Below, piece by piece: positions 2,891 through 21,660 of a stretch of 22,935 nucleotides of DNA. The notes beneath the pieces were generated by a model. It did no database searches and had not been told where the DNA came from. It worked only from the letters and a program-made list of their open reading frames with translations. The DNA is from Isohypsibius dastychi (lineage: Eukaryota > Tardigrada > Eutardigrada > Parachela > Isohypsibiidae): positions 1-22,935 of the forward strand of contig JAQIWT010000339.1 of the NCBI GenBank assembly GCA_034696485.1. The letters run 5' to 3'. The number at the start of each line of letters is the position of its first letter. Position 1 is the stretch's first letter. Made by a program: the position numbers and the translations under genes.

Positions 2891-4217
2891 TTATCGCTGG
2901 GTCTTCTCTTTGGTCTTTTCCTTCTTGGGACTGCCACTTGCACTCTTCTCTTTCTTGGCAGCACTCCCAATTTCCGCTTCAGAAGTCGGACCAATCGCCG
3001 TGTCATATCGGTTCCATTCACTGCGCTTCTTGAACAGAACCGGATGGATTTGCGGAATAACACCGCCTTGCGAAATCTGAACTCCTCGCAACAACCGATC
3101 CAATTCTGGAATAAACGAAAACAAAACGATTAATAAAAGTGAAGAGCGTAATACTGAAATGAAATCTAAAAAATATAAACCAGAACCGCATAGAGAAAAC
3201 AGTCTTCCAAAAATCAACAATTGATAAAATAGTATCTCTGCTATTAACTGTGAAATCCAGAGTTAAAACTGAAACCAGGTCATTCAAATTTTCTTCAAAC
3301 ACGAAACACTAGAATCATCGAAATAGAGATCTGGAAATTTTAAGAAAAGGACGGAAATCGAAAAATCCAAGTTTCGTGAACTAATATAAGACATCTTAAA
3401 TCACAGTTGTGATATTAAATACCTTCATCATTGCGAATGGCAAGCTGGATATGGCGTGGAGTGATTCGCTTCTTGTTATTATCGGCGCTGGCTTTTCCGG
3501 CCAATTCGAGAACTTCCGCCACCAAATACTCGACGACAGCAGCCTGTGAAATAAAAAAATACGGTATTAGATATAGATACAACAGAAAAATGGCTCAAGA
3601 AGAATGAACAAAAAAACTGAAATACGTGACGGATAACGGGAAAACATAATCACTAGCCGACCGGAACTATCAACTTCTGACCAATCCATATTCGCCTTTC
3701 AAAAATGCAAGCCTCAAACGGAAACAACCAATTCAGGAATGAAACATTTTTCATTTGAATGTTCTGAGAAAATAACAAAGCGGAAAATGTCCAATAAAAC
3801 AGTTCTGAAATACTCGTACATCATTCGATTAAGTCAGCAAAAAATTAAATGAGAATTCAGTTACCAGGTCGTTGCGGTCACACTGAGAAAAACAAAATTT
3901 TGAAAAGCTAAAACATGCGATTACATACATAGCCAGGATTTTCGAATCCAATTCTGAAGAAAATTAAGGGAAACTTCCAACTTACAATATATACTCCGGA
4001 AGTGTTGCTCAGACGTTTTGAGTAATTGCCAGCTTTCATATGACGGATGAAACGACTGACGGGCATAACCAAGCCAGATCTTTGGGCTTTGCTGCTCTAT
4101 AAAACGAAAAGAACGGATGAAAAAACGACATTGACATTCTTTTCAAGCAAGTCGAATAACAACGCATTTCCCACTTACTCTCTTCTTCTGAATGGCTTTT
4201 CCACCACGTCCCGACAT
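2891..4217 (-). CDS. divergent histone H2A variant with introns and Lys-rich tail
   Basis: Core nucleosome histone. Exons in coding order: 4217-4179, 4096-3986, 3543-3423, 3105-2891, all with GT-AG introns; the joined frame encodes 161 residues (canonical H2A is about 130). It starts MSGRGGKA like canonical H2A. The fold is complete: [14 protein letters not shown] (N/alpha1), GNYSKR (L1), [19 protein letters not shown] (alpha2), [17 protein letters not shown] and the docking segment [12 protein letters not shown]. All six acidic-patch residues are kept (Glu in VEY, AEV and LEL; Asp-Glu-Glu in NDEEL). L1 and helix 1 differ strongly from canonical H2A. About 43 residues follow the FKK that ends the docking segment; they include SPKK (149-152) and a [10 protein letters not shown] end. 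No SQ(E/D) H2A.X motif, and no histone stem-loop after the stop, so a polyadenylated, replication-independent mRNA is likely. It is not H2A.Z by sequence. A counterpart of the C. elegans sperm H2A variant HTAS-1 is possible but unverified. Confidence 0.93.
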
Positions 4218-4465
4218 GGTTGCAGTAAGATTCGACGAGATTGAGCAAGAAGCGAGCAATAAGTCTGTGAAACTTCTTGAAGTCTTTTGGTGGAAGAATC
4301 GAAAAAGTACGTAGCAACGCACTTCTGGCAGGAATGGAATGTATACAGCAGATGTGCAGGAAGGGATGAAGGTGATTTGAGATCAGGAACCAGGAACAAC
4401 GGGATCAGTGGATGCGAGATGAAATGGAAGTGTTCTTTCTTCAAGCGAGAAAATCTGCAACTGAC

Positions 4466-4494
4466 TTTTTGGCGCAATTCGGAAAACGCGCCAA
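4466..4494. promoter_or_regulatory. possible paired E2F-like sites upstream of the H2A variant
   Basis: TTTTTGGCGC at 4466-4475 and GCGCCAA at 4488-4494 form an inverted pair whose cores match the E2F/DP consensus TTTSSCGC. They lie about 250 bp upstream of the H2A-variant ATG. E2F commonly controls histone and S-phase genes, so the placement is sensible, but the sites are short and the link is inference. Confidence 0.3.
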
Positions 4495-5968: not shown

Positions 5969-6639
5969 ATGGAGATTAAGAAAAATGGCCAGAAGTTCCA
6001 GCACTCGGTAAACCAACTCAAACCCAACCAATCTATCCAAAAACTCATCTAGTTACCCCTTGGAGTGGGATAGATTTAATTTGAAAGGAATGGAGGCGAT
6101 GAGGGAAGATCCGACGAAAATCCTGGAGAGCTATTTCGAAGTTGAAAATCCAAATCCGAAAAGTTAACGAATTTGGCGCCACGTGGCAGACCCCAGCAAA
6201 ACCCCTTACTCCCAGGAGGCAGGCATCTCAGTGACACCTACCACGCACTCCAAACAGTTTTCTTCATAAGTCCGGACAGAATCACTCACACAATCAGGAA
6301 ATTCCATGTAACAAAACAACTATTCAGAAATAATCTGAAAAAATGCACTTTTTTTGAGGAATTCACTCTTCGTCGCCTCCTCGCCTACTCAAATGCTTGC
6401 TTGCGCGCCTGCCAGCATACAAGAACACAGACACAATTGTTTCCACACGATCCTGACAGACACAAAACGAGATCTCGGAAAAAATCTGAATTGATCCACT
6501 CTTTCTCGAGAGATCAACTCTTCGTCACGTGTATGCCTGCTTGCCTGCTCGTCTTGGCATCAGATATGCAGTCTCACGACGAGATTGTTAGTTTATCAAG
6601 GCAAACCTGGCCCACAAACCAGCCCAACAAAATCTGACG

Positions 6640-7795
6640 ACTACCTAAACGGACCAAAGAGCTGACCATCCTCGATCTGAATCAAACCGAGCACACATAG
6701 TCAAAAACGGAATCTGATCAGCATAGCGGGATCATAATTATCTACGAAAACCATCAAAGACAGGCACACGGATCTCCCCGGCACCCAGTCAACTTGGCGG
6801 GGTAACTGGCCGTCCCCGTTTTAGATAAAATCTAGCTCCAACAGTAAGAACAGGATTCTGATCAACACAACGTTGTCAGAATCCCTTATAATCACTAACA
6901 GAGACAAGCACATAGACATTTCCGTCAACCAGGCGGAGAAACATGCCGTCCCCGATTTAAACGAAAACAGAAACAGACAGTCACAAAACCATTCTGATCA
7001 ACATGGCGTTGACAGAATTTGCTAAATACATTCCGAAAGAGCAGCAACCGAAATCTACCGGCAACCAAATCACTGGGTGGAAGAACTCGCCATCCTCGAT
7101 TTGGACGAAAATAAAAACGAACAGTCAGAACACTATGCTGATCAACATGGCGTTGACAGAAATTCTTAACTACATCTCGAAAGACTGGCAACCAAGATCT
7201 TTCGGTAACCAAATAACTGGGCGGAAGAACTTGCCGTCCACAATTTTAACGAAGACAATAACACATAGTCATCAAACCATTTTGATCAACAAAGCGTTGA
7301 CAGAATCTCTCACAAACATCACTAGAGACCAGAACACAAACATTTCCGGCAACTGGCCAACTGGGTGGAGAAACTTGCCTTTCCCGCTTTAAATTATTTC
7401 TGGCCCCATACAGTGATAAACGTAGTTCGATCCACGGACCATTGTCAGAGTATCTAACGAACATCACCAAAGACCAGAACACAGACATTTCCGGCAACCA
7501 GCCAACCGGGCGGAGAAATCGACCGTCCCCGTTTTAACATATTTCTACCTACAAACAACAACAAACACACTCTGATCATTATAGCGTTGTCAGAATTCCT
7601 TACAAACATTACTAGAGACCAGATCACAGACATGTACGGCCACCGGCCAACTAAGCTGAGAAACTTGCCGTCCCCGAATCAGTTCAAAACACGCACACAT
7701 AGTGAAAAACAGATTCTTATCAACATAGCGCTGACAGAAGTCCTTACAATCAAAGTGCAAGACCGAAATTTGTCGATATATTTTGGCATACAGCG
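6640..7795. repeat. tandem array of about eight diverged 144-bp units
   Basis: Units begin with the motif GATCAACATAGCGTTGACAGAAT or a variant at 6716, 6860, 6996, 7140, 7284, 7429, 7574 and 7718. Steps are 144, 136, 144, 144, 145, 145 and 144 bp. A second conserved block inside each unit reads about CCGGCAACCA...GGCGGAGAAACTTGCCGTCC. A partial unit precedes 6716 and the last unit is cut short near 7795. The period equals 48 codons, and units 3-5 share one open plus-strand frame (7003-7392), so this may be either satellite DNA or a dead repeat-protein gene. Confidence 0.8.
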
Positions 7796-8991
7796 TTCAA
7801 ACACCTTCGCTCATCGAAAACTCACAGATAGATCGAAGAAAACCCAAGAAAGGGTGACATTGATGCGGAAATAAAGGATGAAGAAGCTCCAGATGACCGC
7901 CTGGATCCCGTCAAACCGATTGAGAGCCTTACGGCTGACGGCATACTTTGCCTTATTCTACCCAGAACATCAAAGTCCCCCAGCAAAAACATGGTTTGTA
8001 CGATTCTGGAAAGCAAAGACTGAGAATGCAAGCTGGGGAAAAACTCAGATCTCTTCAACTACTAGAAAGCTCCATTTTCTTTATAAACGAAATCCTCGAA
8101 ACCAACTTAAAATGGCGCACAGCGTTGCGTGCACAGGTGTTACAGCTGACGGTTATCTGGAGGCAGAGGCACTTGGGCTGGAATCTACTTCCGTAAGGCG
8201 TTGGGTCTGATGGATCGACAGCCGGTATATGCTGACAGCCGAAAGCTGGTAGTATATATAGGTTTACGTTACGAATGGTATAGGAGAGCGAAAATTGAAC
8301 GGTTCCCTGACGCATGTCTTGATCAGATTGCCTGTGTGAGGCGGGCGAAGTTGCTTAAAATTGCTCGTTAGAGACAGAGCCCCACAGAGCCCTTCCTACC
8401 ACACTTGCAAAAGAAGAATGGCTCGTATCATTCGGATTAGAGTGACCGAGTAAGAGTGAAGAGAAGGGTGAGTGCTGTGACATGGCTTACATGCGATAGC
8501 CACTGGTCTCGATAGAGCATATCCAAGATGGCCACTGAAGGGCAATGTAAACAGACGTCAGATTCTAATTGTTCGTAAATGATATCGTCTCGTAAGCATG
8601 ATGTTTCAACGCTTTTCTTTTTCAGCTTAACTATACCGATTGAAGACATTATTGTATTCTGCAGATTATGTCATACTTCGAAACCTAAATACTTTAGATC
8701 TGGGTTTTGAGAAAAAGCCAGGATCATTACAACAGTGATGGAACTAAACGGGGGGGGGGGGGGGGGGGTTGAAATTTCACTACACAAAACAGTAGTTGCC
8801 ACCACCTCGTCGATTCTACCAAAACAGCTTTCTTCCGGCCTTACGGATTTCAAACCGCTGGCGCGGGTTCGTGCTTGCAAGTTCGCGTACTCGTTCTTGC
8901 AACTTTATGGATCCAGTACAACAGACAACAGCCCGACATACACTCACATCAGGGACACTGATCCGTTGGTGCACTGATCCGTTGAACCTGA
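7796..8991. other. gene-free stretch with possible decayed coding sequence and a G19 tract
   Basis: Between about 7830 and 8196 two plus-strand frames each hold a piece that looks protein-like: an acidic piece (AEIKDEEAPDDRLDPVKP) and then, in another frame, a helix-like piece (EKLRSLQLLESSIFFINEIL). A frameshift could join them, but neither matches a family I know. G19 lies at 8750-8768. The rest, 8200-8990, shows no signal I can support. Confidence 0.3.
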
Positions 8992-10126
8992 TTGAATACC
9001 ACCTGGAAGACCCATAGTGAGCAATTGTGGAACAGAAGGATCTGCGATCTCCATCTTTCGCGAAAGAATATTCAAAAAATGATCATTCCCGAGATATTAC
9101 CGTGCGTAGTCGAAAACTCGTACGACTTCATGAAACTTTTCGAAGAAATACGGAAAAATCTCAAAGATTTCCCGAAAACCATCGATGGTTCTCTGAGAAT
9201 TACTAAACAAATCTGGGTTCAAGCAGATTTGGCCAATCTATATCCGAGTATCCCACTGGAAGAGGCAATGAAATCCATTTTGGACTGTCTCATGACGCAT
9301 CAAAAAACTCGATCAGTTCTGCTGCGCGCAATGGAAGCACTCTGGCATCCACAGCTCTCCGAAAATGATTTTTTATTCAACGGCCAGTGCCACCAACAAA
9401 TTAAAGGATTCGCCATGGGACAAGGATGGGCGCCATCAGTGTCAAACATCTCTCTTCGCCACATCGATGAAATTATCCTGAAATTCCAACCAATAACGTA
9501 CAAGAGATTCATTGATGATCTTATCATCTTTTGGAATTAAGGTGAAAGAAAAACTTAAAGAAATGATGACAGAAGTGGCAGCTTGGAACCCAAACATTGT
9601 CGCAGAATGGTAACCAGCAGGCAACACTGCGATTTTTTCTGACATGCAATTCTTCCGAGTAGCCGACTCGTGAGATTCCGAATTCCGCTAACCAGAAAAA
9701 GATTCACGACGCCTGCTCGGCGTGGATGCATACCATCTAACACACAGATGCAGAGGTGTAATTAAATCCCAAATACTAAGATACCGCAGACTATGCACCC
9801 GAGAAAGAGATGCGCTCAAAGCTGAAAACGTCCTCTTCAACATGCTGGAACATCAGGGCTGTGCACGTAAAATGCTGGAGGTAGTCCGGACAACAGTATT
9901 CCAAGACGAAAACCCTGACCAACTCAAACCAAAGGGACCTTCGACTGTACTTTTAGTCGCAAAATGGGATGAACGCTTACCACCGATCATAAAACTGGTC
10001 CAAAAACACTTTGACGACTTCAGGAAAGAACTTCCCAGCTACGAAGAATGTCACATTCCAGAAAAAGTACAAGCCTCTTGGCGCAGTCATCCAAATCTCA
10101 AGAAACGAATTGTCAGGAGCAAATGA
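8992..10126 (+). pseudogene. Penelope-like element reverse transcriptase, 5'-truncated and frameshifted
   Basis: Reverse transcriptase fragment in two main pieces. 8992-9540 holds motif A (QADLANLYPSIPLEEA), motif B region (KGFAMGQGWAPSVSN) and motif C (YKRFIDDLIIFW) with both catalytic Asp. Coding continues in another frame from about 9533 (KVKEKLKEMMTEVAAWNPN), is cut by stops, and resumes at 9722-10126. The last piece, with RGVIKSQILRYRRLCTRERD and the ending HPNLKKRIVRSK, matches the thumb and post-RT region of Penelope-like elements. A stop follows at once where many Penelope elements continue into a linker and GIY-YIG endonuclease; no such domain is found downstream. At least two frameshifts and several stops make it a pseudogene. 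No RT sequence is recognised upstream of about 8992, so the copy appears 5'-truncated, as is usual for these elements. The family call rests on motif style. Confidence 0.8.
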
Positions 10127-10620
10127 GATCCCATCGATTAAGATTGTAAAACTGTTTTCATCTAAGAACATGTCTGTTTAGTCTTTTTGCGTATTTTCTC
10201 ACTTGATTTCATTTTTTACTACTTGTGAACAAAATAATGAAAGCTCCAAACTGCAGTTATACATTTTACATTGAGGTCCCGAAGAATGAGGGAAAGCCAG
10301 TTAGAAAACGAAGAAGACAACTCGAACGAAAACAGACCAAACAGAAGTAGACCAATCACAAGATCGGAGGCGGAGCTATAACACGCCTCGATCTACTCAT
10401 GCACACGACACTGCACTCGCGAAGACAGCGAAGTCGCTCAGTTGAAGTACACGATCATTTTAGATCCGCATTCAACTTTCAGACTTCGAAGCTCTGTCCA
10501 GGAACCCCAGATTGAATATCAATCTTAAACTACAAATCCAGACGACTCGATCATCTAGGAAATACCATCTGACAGCCCAGCAGCTCCATCCAGCAGCGAA
10601 AACTTCTCTCCAACATAACA
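10127..10620 (+). other. region between RT fragment and ribozyme-bearing segment
   Basis: Contains a short Lys/Arg-rich open piece (about 10260-10345: VPKNEGKPVRKRRRQL) without a recognisable domain and no conserved RNA motif. By position it should be the 3' end of the truncated Penelope-like copy plus the start of the next copy (pLTR), but no repeat of it exists in the window to prove this. Confidence 0.3.
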
Positions 10621-10828
10621 ATGTCGCAAACTCTGCTCTCAAAAGAAAGCTACTCGCAATGGGCAGCAAAAGCTCTTGAGTTTTCAAAGAAGAACGATCA
10701 GGGAGAAGATATATCCCAAGAGGATGAATCAACTCCGGAACCATCGCGAATGGAAGAAACCAGGACCGATTCAGGACTTGAATCATTGGGAGGCTCTCAA
10801 AAGGAGGACATCCCCAACAAAAACAAGG
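10621..10828 (+). CDS. candidate small exon or ORF, Ser/Glu-rich
   Basis: ATG opens 69 codons of a hydrophilic protein (MSQTLLSKESYSQWAAKALE, then Glu/Ser/Asp-rich) that runs into AACAAG|GTAGGC, a good 5' splice site; the unspliced frame stops three codons later. If spliced, the intron would contain the hammerhead ribozyme at 10962-11006; possible acceptors are CTTCTCAG near 11030 and TTTTTCAG near 11083. It lies on the same strand between Penelope-like RT and ORF1. No domain recognised. It may be the true 5' exon of ORF1 or chance. Confidence 0.35.
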
Positions 10829-10961
10829 TAGGCTGAACCTAAGAATAGGAATGTGACTAAGAATGTGAATAAGATAGGATTTAGATTAAAACCCACAACT
10901 TTGATATTTTCTCATCTCTTCCTTTCCTTCCTACTCCTCCCGCCCAAAAGGCGATGAAAAA

Positions 10962-11006
10962 GTTACCTGATGAGATCGGTGAAAGTCCGGCGAAACGCGT
11001 AGTAAC
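10962..11006 (+). ncRNA. hammerhead ribozyme, type I, Penelope-like-element type
   Basis: All conserved core parts are present in order. Stem I is GTTAC (10962-10966) with GTAAC (11002-11006). The first core segment CTGATGA is at 10967-10973. Stem II is GATCGG (10974-10979) with CCGGC (10987-10991), 5 bp with one bulged A and a 7-nt loop. GAAA is at 10992-10995. Stem III is minimal: A10995-U11000 and C10996-G10999, or the palindrome ACGCGT pairing between two molecules. A11001 is the cleavage-site base, so cleavage would fall between 11001 and 11002 after GUA. The closing G-C of stem II (10.1-11.1) is canonical. An A-run before and a U-run after could extend stem I beyond an internal loop. 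Hammerheads with very short stem III are a known feature of Penelope-like retroelements, and this one lies on the same strand just past a Penelope-like RT. It would process tandem transcripts into unit-length RNAs. Confidence 0.88.
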
Positions 11007-11799
11007 GAGTCAGTTTTTTTGCTTCTCAGCTACTCTGTCTCACACCAGAGAAGTCTTTCTTCTCTGGCCGCCATCTTTATTTTTCAGTTATGCAAAACAC
11101 TTTTTCTAGTCCATCAATTCAATTTTGATTTGCATTTCGATTCTAATTTAGTTTTACACGTAACGATGACGATAACGATGACTTTCTACCGATAAACTGC
11201 CCTTTTTGAAGTCCGCCATCTTTAATTTAGTTATCTGTTTTGCTGTCTTGCCACGTCCACCATCTTTATTACAAGCCACTTTTCAATCAATTTACCTGTA
11301 TCTTCACCTGATTAATGTTAAGAATTTTACTTTTCATATCGCTTTCATATTCCATTGTATTTTTCCTATCACTTGTATATTAAAAATACAAAACACAGCA
11401 GATTCCCATACGAACAGCATTGACACAGAACAAACAACGTATTCAGGGAACAACACTGATGAAGTATGCTAAAATATAAAAACACCAGGACAAACAACCA
11501 CGCAGCCACAGTGCAAACAAACGTCCCTTGATGAAAAACCAAAACACGCCACATGTCAGAGCAAATTTCAGCATCCAGAGCAATTAGCTACAGAACAAGC
11601 AAAGTCTCCTTGAAATATACCAAAAACACTCCACCAAACAGGAAAAACAACAAATCAGTAAAGGCACAAACAAACACCGCCAAAGTACACGGAAAGCAAC
11701 GCTGGAACAGGACCTCTCAAAAGAAAACAGCTTCAAAGAACATCAAAAATAGACAGAACAGAAAAAGAACTCACAAACGAGTTCAAATTGTTCCAAAAA
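11007..11799 (+). other. leader between ribozyme and ORF1
   Basis: Starts with the sequence that would be the 5' end of ribozyme-processed RNA. A strong acceptor-like tract (TTTTTTTGCTTCTCAG) ends near 11030 and could serve cis- or trans-splicing. The ORF1 frame is already open from 11662, so coding may begin before the ATG at 11800. An overlapping Lys/Arg/Asn-rich open frame at 11553-11807 is low-complexity and unsupported. Confidence 0.35.
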
Positions 11800-12816
11800 A
11801 TGTCTGAATCAAAACTTTTACGCTTACAGCCGGAAACAAAAATCGAGATTTCACTCACCCCAGAGGAACAGCTTCTAAGCCAGCTCTGGACCAGAAAGCT
11901 GAATCCTTCCGGAGACAACAACTGCGGGAAGGCACCGTTCAACAAGAAGATGCAAGATGACTTGAAGAAAGCCGCTTTTCTTGCCGCGTCATTCCAAAGC
12001 AATCAGCTCGTTTATCAAAAGTACTACGACCGACTGCGAGAAGACAAAGACCATATCCCAGCAGAATTCGAGAAAACGAACGTGGGTCTGCGATTCTTCT
12101 TCAGCCAGCAAGTCACGGACGAACTCATGACGGAAGCGAAGAGCGTCACAGTCCCGCTATTCAAGGAAGCTTTCAACGCGTTCCTTACGAAGATCGCCAA
12201 CTGCAGACTCGAAGGATACAAGATCCTCAAAGAGGAAACCATCAAACCAGTTACCGCCCACAAAGCATCCCTCAGTGAAGAAGCAGACAGGAAGTTCACA
12301 GCACAGCTTGAAGCATATGTGACTGAATCCAAAGCAGACCTCGACCGGAAGATCGCGGAGAGAATTGAGAAGACGAAGAAGATTCAAGAAAAGCGAATGC
12401 TTCCGCCAAAAGCGAAGCAGGAGCCGATCGCGGATCGACAACCTCCTCAACAACATTTCTCGCAACACTCTTCGAGCAGTGAGAGCACCAAGACACCGTC
12501 GAAAAGAATTGACTGCGAAGCTCTCAAGAGAAATCGTGAACAGCAAACACCGCAAGATCGTCAAGCAGAAAATAGACAAGCAACACTAGCATCCAACGAA
12601 GGCCAATTACGTATCAGTAACAACAGCCCAGTCAACCTACGCCGCAAACCGGCGAAAGGAAGGCAAGGCGAGACACGTCAGCCAGGGAGACCGAACCGTA
12701 TCGAAGAGATGGATCGAAATTTCCAGCGAAGACGCGAACGCTCTCCAAACTTCCGATGTACTCCACACAGTTCCGGACCAAACTTCCGGGCCGATCACAA
12801 TCCCGACCGAACTTGA
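11800..12816 (+). CDS. Gag-like ORF1 protein of a retroelement (tail disrupted)
   Basis: 338-residue hydrophilic protein starting at an ATG with AAAA before it; the frame is open back to 11662 without another ATG. No domain recognised. Roughly residues 1-150 look globular (LTPEEQLLSQLW; LRFFFSQQVTDELMTEA), about 155-200 are Lys/Glu-rich and probably coiled-coil, and from about 205 to the end the protein is Gln/Arg/Ser/Pro-rich and basic, as in RNA-binding Gag-like tails. The stop at 12816 may be secondary: another frame carries a similar Arg-rich reading onward (RSRSPVVKRYRQ), meets a TAA at 12912-12914, and then reads across the pogo insertion site into 16344. Its position after the hammerhead ribozyme suggests it is ORF1 of a Penelope-like copy, but that assignment is inference from order and strand. 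Confidence 0.55.
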   Translation: MSESKLLRLQPETKIEISLTPEEQLLSQLWTRKLNPSGDNNCGKAPFNKKMQDDLKKAAFLAASFQSNQLVYQKYYDRLREDKDHIPAEFEKTNVGLRFFFSQQVTDELMTEAKSVTVPLFKEAFNAFLTKIANCRLEGYKILKEETIKPVTAHKASLSEEADRKFTAQLEAYVTESKADLDRKIAERIEKTKKIQEKRMLPPKAKQEPIADRQPPQQHFSQHSSSSESTKTPSKRIDCEALKRNREQQTPQDRQAENRQATLASNEGQLRISNNSPVNLRRKPAKGRQGETRQPGRPNRIEEMDRNFQRRRERSPNFRCTPHSSGPNFRADHNPDRT

Positions 12817-12946
12817 TCCGTAACCAAGGCCCACACATACGGAGCAGAAGCCCTGTCGTGAAACGATACCGGCAGATGAACGAGCAACCGGGTTTGTTAC
12901 TGATCCCGGAATAATATTGGCCAGCTCAATTCTATCCAGCATACTA

Positions 12947-13067
12947 CCAGTAAAGACAACATATCGGGTCACAGCTGGGCTTTGTTTTGAATCCGGTCAA
13001 CCCCTATTTTTTCGTCTGACTGGGATCAATCACGTATCATTCGAAAGATCTTTTCAAGATCTATCGA
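12947..13067 (+). repeat. left terminal inverted repeat of the pogo-like element
   Basis: The outer 32 bp are identical to the reverse complement of the right end, one mismatch follows, then CTTTGTTT matches again. Similarity fades inward, but TCAAGATCTATCGA recurs at 13054-13067, 107-120 bp from the tip, at the same distance as on the right side. Confidence 0.92.
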
Positions 13068-13272
13068 TCAATATACATGGATGTCGAAAATATTTAACTG
13101 ACGAAGAGTTACTGGCAAACTTGGTTTTGACTGATATTTGCATTGTTTGGCCAATGCGCACGACCACGCGCGATGCAAGAAGTATGTAAACAAGTCGCTG
13201 TTGCACAATTTGCTGAGACTTCCAGCTAACCTCGGTTGTTCTTTGCCAGTCTGAATTCCTGCATATTTTAAG

Positions 13273-16102
13273 ATGGATCCTGAGCTCATCAAGGCTTACT
13301 GGGACGTAACACCGCACAGCATTTCCATTCGCGAAGCAGCGAGAAAATATAGTGTCTCTAAGAACACATTAACGAGACGAATGAAAGATCTGGTGACGAC
13401 CATCTGTGTTTTCGGAATATGACGAAAATCTGCTGGCCACATTGATGCGAGCATTTGAACAATTCAAGCTTCCCATGACTGCTTTCATGTTCGTTGAACA
13501 CGTTCAACAGCTGGCGAATGAACGAAGTACGGTAGTTCTGAGAAGTCGAGTTTTGAAAGAAGGATTTTGCTTGGACGTGGTTGTGATTTGCATCAATTTT
13601 TCAGGAATAAAGCATCGTTTTAACGACTGATGGGTTCTACGATTCGCACGACGACACAATATGTCCCTCCGTTCCGCAAATGCACAGTCATCAGAAGAAA
13701 AAATCTTCACCGAGAGCAAGGCGCAGAAAATGATCGCTCTTTTGGAGAATCTTTTCAGTCGCGGTTATCTGCAGGATGGGCGGCTCAACTTCAACCTCGA
13801 CGAAGGAGGAATGTAACTGGGTAACAAACGAGCCCGTGTTTTGGCAACGAGAGAAAAAAACGTATTCCGCGTTTGACAAAAGGTGGGTTATTTAGTGGGT
13901 TATTTTTGTGGTGTTTAGTTATTCTTCTCGTTTGTTGCACAGGAGATGTAAGAAAGCAGATCACTGTTCTCTCTTGTGAAAATGCTGCTGGAATATTACT
14001 GAAACCATTAATTTTATACGACGGGAAGCAAGTGATGGCGGAGTGGTTTGACGAGACTGACGATGAAGTTTATATACAGCGAAATGAAAGCGAAACTATG
14101 GACACGAATATGTTTTTCCGCTATGTTGAGCAAGTAATCGGGCCATACTTGGAAGAGAATGGTCCACCAACGAATAAGGTACACTGTGTGTTGTGATTTG
14201 TGTTATCTTCCCCATTGTAGCTGATTTCAAATTCGAAAAAAATGAACTTTCATGAGAAAAAATTCAAATAATGACGTTTTCTATTTTTATACAGTCATAT
14301 TACGTAAGCCGTACGTATCAATTCGAATTCCGTGAGATGGAGGGCGCTCGATTTAGCCACGGAGGGTAGCGTCGTGGTATCAGATCAGGGTATATGGGCT
14401 GATAATCGAAGTTTGACTTCATAGTTGCTCTAACTGAAGCGCGTTTTTAATTCACTGGATTCTCTACCGCTCAATTCCTAAATGGTCAACGGCACAGAAA
14501 TGAAAGCGACGAAAATAGCCTCTGCCCGGGCTCGGAGTAAATACTACAAATTTTGTGTGCTCCGTTGCCCAGATCACATATTAACTCCCAGGTGGCTTCT
14601 TCACACAACACAGCCGATATGGTTGCCCTGCTTGATATGAAATTGTTCCTCTCCCTTATAGTGCAAGAGGGGTGCAGCAGATCGGCTATTAATAGACCAA
14701 AATGAACCATGAAGGCCAGTTGTGCCGTGATGAGTGAAGTTAGTTTGATAGGAGTACCAGGCAGATGAGTGGAGCCGTTGATAAATGCCCCGGCTGTGAT
14801 TTATTGAGCTGACTGGCTGACCACTTTCCCTGTGATTTATTGAGCTGACCACTTAACTCGAACACGACGATTGTACAGAACTCACATACTGACCTACCCA
14901 AATATTTTTATTTTACGGTAATTAACTCTTTTTGTTAGAGTTACTGTATTTAATTTATGGCTAACGTAAGCCCACGTGTGGGGAGGGAAGAAGATTTGTC
15001 TATGGACATTTCAGCCATGTATACAATTTGGAGCTTGTGTATTACTGCATTCAGCGAGGGATTGAGATTGTCGTTTATCCTGCTGGACAAACTTCCCGTC
15101 TTCAGGTTTTTGATTTAAAAGTGTTCGGTCCGTTCAAAACTGGATGAAAAAAGTACCAGAATAGGATTGACCTCAGCGTGGATAAGGTAAACTCTACGAA
15201 TCATGAATTGTTTTTTGAAATATTTTTCACATCGTGAACCTTCGTTCTTTTGTAGATCGAAAGAAACAACTTGCCACGTCATTTTGTGAATGTCTGGAGA
15301 ACGATGGATTTCCGCGAGAAACTGATTTCTGGTTTTCTTGATACGGGAATTTTTCCATTTGCACCGGAAAAGCTACGGCAATCGCATATGAAGTTCCCTC
15401 GGCGCCCGGTGCCGTGCTCGCCAGTCCCTCCAAGAAAAAAGCTATCTAGGACTTTATATCATTATTGGCTACCACTTCTTTGGCTGGCAGACTGAACGAA
15501 ACACAAGTTATGAATCTCATGGCAGTTGTACCGGATGTCCTTCAAAGTACGTTAAGCATTTTTTTTTGGAAATTGCGCTTTCTGAAATTTTTCTATAAAT
15601 TTCAGTGACTGATACCGTCCATGAACTGGTGAAATCGCACGCGGCGGCTATTATTGGTCCAGTTAAGGAGCCGAGGAAGAAATCGGACTCTGCTGGGATT
15701 TGGATTGACACCGATCATGCTACACTTCTTACAACTCCTGAAATTAAAAGACTGCTGGAAAAACGATGGGAAAAACAGAAAATGTGGAAGCCAAAAGTTC
15801 CGAAGTCGCAAAAACGGAAAATCGATTTTGACGAAGAGTTCGATGCTACCGGTTCTAGCACACCTCTGCCTGCAAATGCTGGCCCTGAATGTGTTTTCGA
15901 AGCTGCTGTTCAATATCCGAAAAAGAAAAGCCACGGACCTGCGAAGCCTTACAAAAGAGCGAAGCGCACTGGGAAGCTCCTAGACGTCAGCAACACTGTT
16001 TTGCCCGATGTTGCCCCTGCTCCTGTCAGAAAGTCCTCACGGACTTGCCTACCAAAAAAATTGGCTTGGAAATCATTGTTTCTATATTTTGACCCAGTTT
16101 GA
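13273..16102 (+). pseudogene. pogo-type transposase, multi-exon, inactivated
   Basis: DDE transposase gene. Pieces in order: 13273-13393 (helix-turn-helix, IREAARKYSVSKNTLTRRM); about 13397-13526 (RPSVFSEYDENLLATLM, CENP-B-type second HTH); 13605-13882 (WVLRFARRHNMSLR and first catalytic Asp in FNLDEGG); 13943-14178 (KQITVLSCENAAG); about 14983-15186 (FVYGHFSH and FDLKVFGPFK); 15256-15546 (GFLDTGIFPF); 15606-16102 (basic tail). Introns at 13527-13604, 15187-15255 and 15547-15605 fit GT-AG and frame. Breaks: frameshift near 13394; stops at 13628-13630 (before the Trp), after FNLDEGGM, at 13874-13876 and after FGPFKTG; and a frameshift in an A-run near 15435. The second catalytic Asp, expected in the DGHFSH-type motif, is Tyr. 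The third (VFDLK) is kept. The gene cannot make active transposase. Confidence 0.88.
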
Positions 16103-16219
16103 CGAAAAACACTGAATTTTTGATGTGGATTTTACTTCAATCAATAAGTATTTTGGTCAAAGATTCAGCGGAGTGCTGTTTCTTCGGGTTTGATTTTTCA
16201 TCATCAAATGCAGTATCAT

Positions 16220-16341
16220 TCGATAGATCTTGATAAGGTTCTGCAAATGACATATAGTTTATCTCATTCAGATGAAAAAAATGGGGATGGACCGGATTTT
16301 AAACAAAGTCCAGCTGTGACCCGATATGTTGTCTTTACTGG
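16220..16341 (-). repeat. right terminal inverted repeat of the pogo-like element
   Basis: Reverse-complement partner of 12947-13067. The inner shared block TCGATAGATCTTGA is at 16220-16233, 108-121 bp from the tip, which sets the repeat length at about 121 bp. Confidence 0.92.
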
Positions 16342-16343
16342 TA

Positions 16344-16892: not shown

Positions 16893-17750
16893 CTACACAC
16901 CTCTAAAAGAAGCTACATACCTGCAATACAAATCAAATTTGCCGGCTACGTAAGTGCTTCTTCAGAGATTCAACTTCTCTGCTGGCTGACTGCTGATGAC
17001 TTCGCGGAATTTGCTGCTGCAGTTCATGCAAATGGAGCTCCTTTTAATAACTGCTGGGGATTCATCGATGGCACCGAAAGACCAATTTGCAGACCAACTG
17101 TGGGACAACGAGTGGTCTTTAATGGCCACTACCGTTTTCACAGTCTTGCATTCCAATCGGCTGTGACACCAGATGGATTTATCGCCAACTTGGATGGCCC
17201 ATGGCCTGGACGACGACATGATGCCGGAATTCTTCGGGAAAGTGGATAACTGGAAAGCCTGGCGCAAAAAATGCAACAAATTGGTGGAGAATATGTGTTG
17301 TATGGAGATCCGGCGTATCCCATCAGCGATTTTATGGAAGCCCCGTTTAGAACACGAGCAGCTGGGCTTACGGAAACGGGAGCGGCATCCAACGTGGATA
17401 TGTCATCAAATCGGGTTGCTGTTGAATGGGTTTTTGGTAAAATCGTTCAACTCTGGGCTGTTGTTGATTTTACCGAAAATCTTCGAGTTCTTATGCAGCC
17501 TGTTGGAAAAAACTATTTGGTTGCAGCTCTTTTGACAAATATGCATTCAACACTTTATGGAAGCCAGACTGAAACAACTTCTGGCGTTCATCCACCGACT
17601 TTGCAAGAGTATTTGCGGAATTTGTTTTCGTTCTTAAGTGTCGAGCTTATGTTTTTCTTTCTCCATCTTCACGCGTTCTTTCTCGATTTCCAGTTTCTCG
17701 CGATCCAACTTTGCTTTTTCCACCTCCGGTTTGATGGCACTTTCGCGTGA
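16893..17750 (+). pseudogene. PIF/Harbinger-type DDE transposase (DDE_Tnp_4), one internal stop
   Basis: Catalytic part of a Harbinger transposase. In one frame: LCWLTADDFAEFAAAVHANG, then GFIDGTERPICRP with the first catalytic Asp (codon 17067-17069), NGHYRFHSLAFQS and PWPGRRHD, the second Asp in LYGDPAYP (17307-17309), and the Glu in VAVEWVFGKI (17424-17426). So the DDE triad is complete. A single TAA at 17247-17249 breaks the frame in the segment RESG-stop-LESL. The N-terminal part usual for the family is missing or lies in unrecognised exons; the frame opens after a stop at 16890. The end overlaps, tail to tail, the Myb-like gene on the other strand (17634-17750); the true end may be near 17640. 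No start codon is identifiable. Confidence 0.85.
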
Positions 17751-20297: not shown

Positions 20298-21660
20298 GGG
20301 CAAAAGTAGACCCAGATAGACAAAACAGCATTAGCACTCATCTACGGAGTGAAACAGTTCCACCAGTACCTAGCCGTGTGAAAGTTCACGTTGCTGACGG
20401 ACCACAAACCATTGATTTCGGTCTTCGAAAGCAAGCACGGAAAACGACCGGTTACGGCAAATCGTCTGCGAAGCTGGACAATTGTGCTGATGGGTTACTC
20501 ATCCGCAATTGAGTACAGAAAGACCACCAAGTTCGGACGAGCAGATGGTTTGAGTAGGCTGCCTTTGTCATCAACGAATTTGTCTGACACATATGATTTT
20601 GGAATAAGCCGGAATTTCTGCAAAATACAGCTGGTAAGCCTACGCAACACACCAGTTGTAGTGTCCGCAATCAGGAAATCTACATCAACAGACCCGATCT
20701 TATCTCATGTACGCAACTTTATCCGAAGCGGTTGGCCCAAAACGTTCAATGCAGCGATGCATCCTCACTATCATCACCATCTGGGAATTGCAGTGGTGGA
20801 GGGATATCTGCTTTGAGTAATGCCCACAGTGATTCCGAAGAAGTTTCAGAGTCAGCTTTTGAACAACTTGCACGAGACAAACGCTGAGGTGAGAATGAAC
20901 GCAAACAGGAAGGATTCATTTCTGGTGGCTTAGAATCGACGAAGATATCATCAATCTCAAAGAAACTGCAAAGGTTCCTCTGCAGCAGTTTATTACACTA
21001 GAAACTCCATGGCAACGAATTCACATCGATTTCACAAGATCCTTCAAAAATTCAATGTTTTTACCTTTTTCGTGGATGCAAGGTTGAAGTTGCTCCAAGT
21101 AGTACAAATGCGACGCACATTGTCCAAGGATGTTATTGAAGTGTTGGATGACCTTCTTGGCAAATACGGAATTTGCTAAGAAATGGTCAGCGGTAACGGC
21201 ACTCAATTCGCCTCACAGGAATTCATGGATTTGTGTCAACGTAGTGGCGTTCGACATCATAAGACTGGCCACTTACAATTCATTCAAAACGGCTATTAAG
21301 AAAGCAACTTTTGATGGTACTGTTCTGAGTGAGGCATTGCGGAGATTTTTGTATCGTTCCAGAAGTACCTCACATGCTACAAACAGACTTCCTCCAGCCA
21401 AATTGTTTCTATAACGAAAAATAAGAACTGTTCTGGATCTTTTGAATCCTCACCGTTAAACGAAAGCAGAGAGATATCGTCTTAAACAGAAGAAATATTT
21501 CGACCGCCATACTGTTACTTAAGAATTCTGAAATTGAGAAAAAGTCATGCACAAAATGTTCAAGAAAAATCATTCTGGATAGACAGCAGGAACCTTGAAG
21601 CTTCGAGAGTGAAACCGGAACTGGGAAGTTGAGGCAGATGTTCTTATGTGAAAGCGTCAT
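20298..21660 (+). pseudogene. Ty3/Gypsy-type RNase H-integrase remnant
   Basis: Decayed piece of a Gypsy-type pol gene on the plus strand. RNase H end: ALALIYGVKQFHQYL, a stop, KFTLLTDHKPL, then IEYRKTTKFGRADGLSRLP (longest intact part 20391-20816). The usual spacer follows (DPILSHVRNFIRSGWP), a degraded zinc-finger region near 20820-20960 with stops, then the integrase core: PWQRIHIDF with the first Asp (21028-21030), a frameshift near 21060, and VSGNGTQFASQEF, in which the second catalytic Asp has become Gly (21192-21194). The third part (NGY-stop-ES) keeps a Glu but with an in-frame stop. A degraded C-terminal part reaches about 21640. Many stops; no LTRs recognised. The integrase is certainly inactive. 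Confidence 0.8.

Follow-up and report, generated by a model that had tools for sequence, protein, structure and literature searches.

Is a 45-nt motif that reads like a hammerhead ribozyme the relic of a once working retroelement, or have its bases fallen into this order by accident? The question is posed by a stretch of 22,935 nucleotides of Isohypsibius dastychi (contig JAQIWT010000339.1; the whole of the analysed stretch is referred to as the window), in which a first-pass annotation, made from the letters alone, had placed a hammerhead ribozyme downstream of a nematode Penelope-like reverse transcriptase (RT) and upstream of a Gag-like open reading frame (ORF). Judged by its sequence and setting, the motif is rather likely to be a minimal type I hammerhead that was brought in by a Penelope-like element (PLE), of which a truncated and broken copy now lies at about 8990-11010.

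Hammerhead ribozymes share a core of CUGANGA and GAAA, and the triplet ahead of their cleavage site follows the rule NUH (H not G). All the core positions that we take to be invariant are present at 10962-11006: along the motif, GTTAC, CTGATGA, stem II, GAAA, CGCG (10996-10999), T 11000, A 11001 and GTAAC follow one another (Table 1), and direct reading of CTGATGA, GAAA and the GTA site confirms the completeness that had been claimed. Stem I consists of five Watson-Crick pairs between 10962-10966 and 11002-11006 and is as perfect as first described. Stem II is made up of G-C, a bulged A10975, U.G, C-G, G-C and G-C, i.e. five pairs closed by a 7-nt loop; the bulged A had been noticed before, the U.G pair had gone unmentioned. 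The triplet GTA at 10999-11001 fits NUH, and cleavage is predicted between A11001 and G11002, in agreement with the earlier assignment. Stem III is the unusual part: the self-complementary ACGCGT has no closing loop in the monomer, unlike the canonical type I hammerhead of the kind described by Rfam Hammerhead_1, so that, as the first-pass annotation had suspected, this stem needs a second molecule or a second motif in order to form. With core and stems I and II present and helix III at most dimeric, the motif would qualify as a hammerhead of the minimal PLE kind.

Minimal type I hammerheads of PLEs have reportedly been described by Cervera and De la Pena in 2014 and by Lunse, Weinberg and Breaker in 2017. 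In the portions available of three papers, the analysed PLE sequences bear tandem minimal type I hammerheads without helix III, which may cut as dimers (PMC6155905, PMC7761336, PMC6466107); the statement that hammerheads of this kind are known from Penelope-like retroelements is thereby borne out. The window motif shares with them the core, an open stem I, a short stem II, the lack of stem III in the monomer and a PLE-like RT nearby. It differs from them in that the window holds one motif in place of the tandem pair that PLEs carry in their pseudo-LTRs, with no recognised terminal repeat, in a broken host element and with a bulged stem II; the descent of the motif from a PLE terminal repeat may be proposed.

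The RT remnant lies on the same strand and ends at 10126, 836 bp upstream of the motif, close to the 840 bp first given. Its features, including the PPGRPIV segment, are presumably those of the Penelope-like clade, and by these marks, used with neither a tree nor a named PLE reference, the neighbour is classed as a PLE-clade RT. The copy is broken: within 1.1 kb there are four stops (TAA 9538 and three more up to 9691), and the frame shifts twice, once ahead of about 9080 and once around 9540. Relatives are found in the assembly (30.4 Mb in 1648 contigs, possibly partial), where comparison with the RT of contig C507 gives 39% over 61 for the core (E 2e-16) and 28% over 144 residues for the thumb piece (E 3e-18); in the protein database, the window RT has no match at E<=0.001. 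The GIY-YIG endonuclease that canonical PLEs possess was not recognised in the frames run through Pfam, among which the short ones at 10127-10960 are not included; the copies are truncated and broken.

Table 1. The hammerhead-like motif, its parts and its neighbours in the window
Feature	Position	Strand	Basis
Minimal type I hammerhead-like motif	10962-11006	+	direct reading; descriptor model 29.8 bits, E 4.1e-7
Stem I, 5' strand GTTAC (partner 11002-11006)	10962-10966	+	direct reading
Core CTGATGA	10967-10973	+	direct reading
Stem II region, 18 bases, 7-nt loop	10974-10991	+	direct reading, descriptor scan
Core GAAA (A10995 doubles as start of stem III)	10992-10995	+	direct reading
ACGCGT, self-complementary, loopless stem III	10995-11000	+	direct reading; duplex -7.5 kcal/mol
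Stem I, 3' strand GTAAC	11002-11006	+	direct reading
PPGRPIV-bearing open segment, frame other than that of the RT core	8996-9079	+	three-frame translation; similar in C146, C361
Penelope-like RT core, ending in TAA 9538-9540	8992-9540	+	Pfam RVT_1 E 8.2e-8; RT matches elsewhere in assembly
RT C-terminal (thumb) remnant, frame differing from that of the core, interrupted by three stops up to 9691	9541-10126	+	sequence comparison, translation
Open frame, 384 codons, first ATG 11800	11662-12816	+	open reading frame; no convincing relative

How readily such a motif arises by chance was estimated by simulation. The core and GAAA by themselves occur no more often than expected, with four matches in the window versus 2.97. 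A full descriptor, which was drawn up after the motif had been seen, demands a stem I of at least 5, a stem II of at least 5 with one bulge allowed and a stem III of at least 3; in 18,560 Mb-strand of order-2 random sequence with the composition of the window, 377 motifs as good were found (0.0203 per Mb-strand), corresponding to 0.00093 per window-sized sequence and 1.23 per 30.4 Mb. The loopless form is scarcer, with 24 simulated cases or 0.08 expected per 30.4 Mb, and a smaller first simulation of 240 Mb-strand yielded two motifs as good and none that was loopless. A covariance model built for the same descriptor gives the motif 29.8 bits (E 4.1e-7), versus 9.7 for the runner-up in the window, and at best 17.5 bits on 43 other loci; this model rests on 14 random-stem sequences, none of them organismal, and was likewise designed with the motif in view, and its E-values are rough.

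Within the assembly, the window RT as query finds seven places including itself, and the open RT frame of C507 finds 15; PLE matches lie on 11 contigs altogether, the window's included, some of them short (26-42 residues: C529, C718, C125). Of the ten other contigs, six carry sequences 30-53% identical to the window RT and four match the C507 RT only; one, C70, ends about 1 kb past its PLE match. The best descriptor score among these ten is 15.6 bits, on C146, for a candidate with a 2-base insert in stem II, and an Rfam scan of six PLE loci reports no hammerhead over threshold. Searches by pattern were similarly unproductive: one such search of the assembly gave 154 matches, versus 89 for the reversed control, and among the matches listed there is no second convincing motif, while for the pattern CTGATGAG..CGAAA 56 overlapping matches, spread over 36 places, stand against five in the reversed control, an excess that is not used as evidence. 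At the three of these places whose flanks were checked, stem I pairing extends over at most one base.

Other candidates were rejected. With 73 of 4859 candidates scored, Rfam Hammerhead_1 (RF00163) reports two places in the assembly, neither in the window; their 18.7 and 16.8 bits fall short of the gathering score of 34, and since sub-threshold matches also turn up in 11 of 14 control genomes, these are taken as noise. At position 6460 of locus L041 (G000:C507:5001-15000), a candidate has a stem I of 5 with two G.T pairs, a stem II of 4, a stem III of 3 and a long stem III segment, and lies outside the PLE insert, in flanking sequence resembling a long interspersed nuclear element (LINE). Loose scans also list a weak candidate at position 768 of L040, and L061 and L062 each hold one with a single mismatch in the core; all four, that of L041 included, are unreported by the descriptor model and were not counted. 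At 4649-4725 of L064, a hairpin resembles mir-498 below threshold (39.1 bits; gathering score 85), and its opposite strand resembles mir-1287, again below threshold (26.7 bits).

The PLE copy of C507 has some features of its own. It sits within LINE-like frames of the opposite strand, and on either side of the truncated PLE lies one copy of a 319-base direct duplication (4154-4472 and 6050-6368 of L041, 99.7% identical), which is very long for the target duplication of such an insertion. Near the common 3' end of two PLE copies (about 5979-5996 of L041 and about 7000 of L040), a hairpin keeps its pairing by two-sided change, ACACGG..CCGTGT versus ATACGG..CCGTAT. This 3' end, which C507 has in common with C146, contains a small hairpin with one compensated pair, and the descriptor model reports no hammerhead there.

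The rival explanation that has to be weighed most carefully, unlikely as we hold it to be, is that the bases satisfy the hammerhead rules by chance in the neighbourhood of an unrelated PLE fossil. About 1.2 equally good motifs are expected in random sequence as long as the assembly (30.4 Mb), so the motif taken alone could be a chance find of a scan over many windows. A number of further observations weigh against a genuine PLE hammerhead, most of which chance would readily explain: (i) an Rfam scan of the whole window reports no hammerhead up to E 5, and a 161-nt slice matches RAGATH-1-hammerhead (RF03152) alone, at 14.2 bits and E 4.4 with a gathering value of 56.3; the alignment, 10936-11006, has the core in common with this family and lacks its long stem III. 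The covariance-model check proposed in the first-pass annotation therefore has a divided outcome, negative with Rfam and positive with a descriptor that was built post hoc, and some of what that annotation had said would speak against a ribozyme is indeed found, as there is neither an Rfam match over threshold in the window nor any other copy in which compensatory changes could be sought. (ii) The folding energy is ordinary (z -0.16; z -0.51 for 10930-11060), and the folds of minimum free energy differ from a hammerhead: the hammerhead-like monomer, at -4.2 kcal/mol, lies 3.3 above the best monomer fold of -7.5, tertiary contacts being left out of account. (iii) The motif region is single copy in the assembly; none of the ten other PLE contigs has an equally good motif in the 3-10 kb read of each, not even C507, with its open RT piece and a PLE insertion that looks recent, and among the 36 CTGATGAG..CGAAA places the window's is the sole one whose stems looked good, on a visual assessment of stem II and a check of the flanks at three places. 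Many metazoan genomes, in contrast, hold thousands of minimal motifs, mostly dispersed, according to the portion available of PMC7761336. (iv) No direct repeat or repeated region surrounds the motif, and its intactness in so decayed a copy would be somewhat lucky: if the four stops stand for roughly 0.08 changes per site, some 37 sites would stay untouched in about 5% of cases, a rough figure. The PLE copies on the other contigs, C507 among them, belong to other families and are proof neither for nor against a hammerhead in that of the window. What argues against chance is the place, since a position less than 1 kb downstream of a same-strand PLE-like RT is a published setting and favours a real ribozyme; multiplying 0.0203 per Mb-strand by 11 PLE contigs and 1.5 kb downstream gives a joint expectation of about 3e-4. 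In addition, a stem III that lacks a loop comes near to what has been reported of PLE hammerheads.

Two further explanations accept the ribozyme and differ in what it does. According to the first-pass annotation, the motif would cut tandem transcripts: the RT would belong to one unit of a working tandem PLE, the hammerhead to a common terminal repeat and the Gag-like frame, as first ORF, to the next unit, the whole being processed by the ribozyme. RT, motif and open frame do follow in this order on one strand, with the first ATG of the ORF at 11800, 794 bp after 11006 and near the 790 bp first given (the open frame itself begins at 11662), and the failure of Pfam to recognise GIY-YIG in the frames tried would suit the endonuclease-lacking PLEs with two ORFs or a coiled-coil ORF and a 3' hammerhead that exist as rotifer Terminons (PMC6431247, as far as the available portion goes). 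Such a working tandem is nonetheless very improbable. The RT is broken whereas the downstream frame is open, which implies different ages or constraints for the two; the window yielded neither a second motif nor a repeated unit, in an element whose 5' part, the expected site of a second motif, is missing; and the ORF matches no Pfam family, nothing in the protein database at E<=0.001 and nothing elsewhere in the assembly. The weak matches that it does give are unrelated (NCBIfam E 0.11; a cell-wall protein in PDB, E 0.0091), so that comparison with Pfam, NCBIfam, PDB, the protein database and the assembly leaves its description as Gag-like without support. Telomeric repeat arrays, too, are absent after the motif for the units tried (TCACCC not among them), on which ground a telomere-linked reading was set aside. 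Slighter still is the prospect that the motif was kept for a new use after the death of the RT, being domesticated or serving non-autonomous circles: the core and stem I are intact beside a decayed RT, but the motif occurs once in the assembly, and luck can account for a lone 45-nt stretch that has stayed intact while its element decayed. One form of this idea, which we mention as a long shot, is that an intact half of a double hammerhead was kept because its RNA is still used, either pairing in trans with hammerheads that living relatives, absent from the assembly, would carry or providing an RNA-cutting signal for the ORF at 11662-12816.

The preferred reading, a minimal hammerhead left behind by a PLE, suggests the following course of events in the living element. 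Tandem transcripts would carry two motifs, or two transcripts would meet; two ACGCGU segments could then pair to a common 6-bp stem III (duplex -7.5 kcal/mol), stems I would form across the two motifs to give a double hammerhead, and cleavage of both RNAs behind A11001 would leave a 2',3'-cyclic phosphate and a 5'-OH. In favour of this reading, the double-hammerhead pairing evaluates to -17.3 kcal/mol, 3.0 above the best two-strand fold of -20.3, tertiary contacts again being left out of account. With one motif found and the RT dead, the window copy has no partner in cis, and it is probably silent.

Comparison with better characterised systems, each cited from the portion of the source available, places the motif among several relatives. 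Like the hammerhead of PAc (Poseidon, Anolis carolinensis), it is probably PLE-borne; PAc has stems I and II and loop II, and no stem III is named for it in that portion. The PAc motif spans the ORF start, whereas the window motif lies beyond the RT remnant, and the ATG in its core runs into TAG at 11000. For PAc, no cleavage is reported without the PLE protein, and core mutants of the Anolis PLE hammerhead leave insertion in vitro unaffected (PMC11167929). With the Terminons, the telomere-linked PLEs of bdelloid rotifers, the window shares a hammerhead 3' of a PLE in which no endonuclease is recognised; it differs from them in having no telomeric repeats seen after the motif and no recognised accessory ORFs (PMC6431247). 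The metazoan non-LTR retrozymes resemble it in their type I hammerhead with weak stem III, dimer action having been reported for those of amphibians, and are distinguished by arrays of which there is none at the window motif (PMC7229834). A reading as retrozyme or long terminal repeat (LTR) element was rejected, as no terminal repeats or tandem units are present at the motif.

The nematode origin proposed for the RT receives no support. The N-terminal domain of cuticle collagens, the sperm-type major sperm protein (MSP), TTR-52 and SL1 are general in nematodes, and none of the four corresponding searches of the assembly returned anything nematode-specific. Col_cuticle_N (PF01484) and TTR-52 (PF01060) gave zero matches, as did Chitin_bind_4 (PF00379), a family common in arthropods and included as an arthropod check; a zero in a possibly partial assembly does not show absence. 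SL1 was not found at one mismatch. Motile_Sperm (PF00635) has two matches, showing that the family search works on this assembly: that on C730 is MOSPD2/VAP-like by comparison with PDB and that on C586 is alike by eye, and a sperm-type MSP was not found among the two. The splice acceptors read by eye in an isomerase gene of the window (two ATTCAG, one TTCAAG and one TTTTAG) would suit a nematode and are indecisive.

The gene in question, at 807-2134, comprises exons of a delta(3,5)-delta(2,4)-dienoyl-CoA isomerase-like gene (PDB 2vre, E 2.3e-27 for one exon; ECH_1). Elsewhere in the window, about seven repeats of 144-145 bases, roughly 60-75% alike and with long open frames, occupy 6694-7752; for the two frames compared with Pfam, no family was matched. 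Inverted repeats at 12945-13107 and 16181-16343 (78% over 166 columns) enclose a weak DDE_1 match at 13825-14196 (E 0.029); by its layout, this stretch probably represents a DNA transposon whose insertion site lies directly behind the open frame at 11662-12816. At 16893-17750, two frames match DDE_Tnp_4 and probably represent a Harbinger-like transposase, and 20382-20816 weakly matches an RNase H-like domain of retrotransposons (PF17917, E 0.015).

Minimal PLE hammerheads that act as dimers have already been published, the window motif probably being one more example, in a dead element; a single copy in such an element cannot settle whether dimers are required. If real, the motif would add one host to those of PLE hammerheads, and its especially clean loopless stem III would be useful for asking whether such ribozymes must act as dimers.
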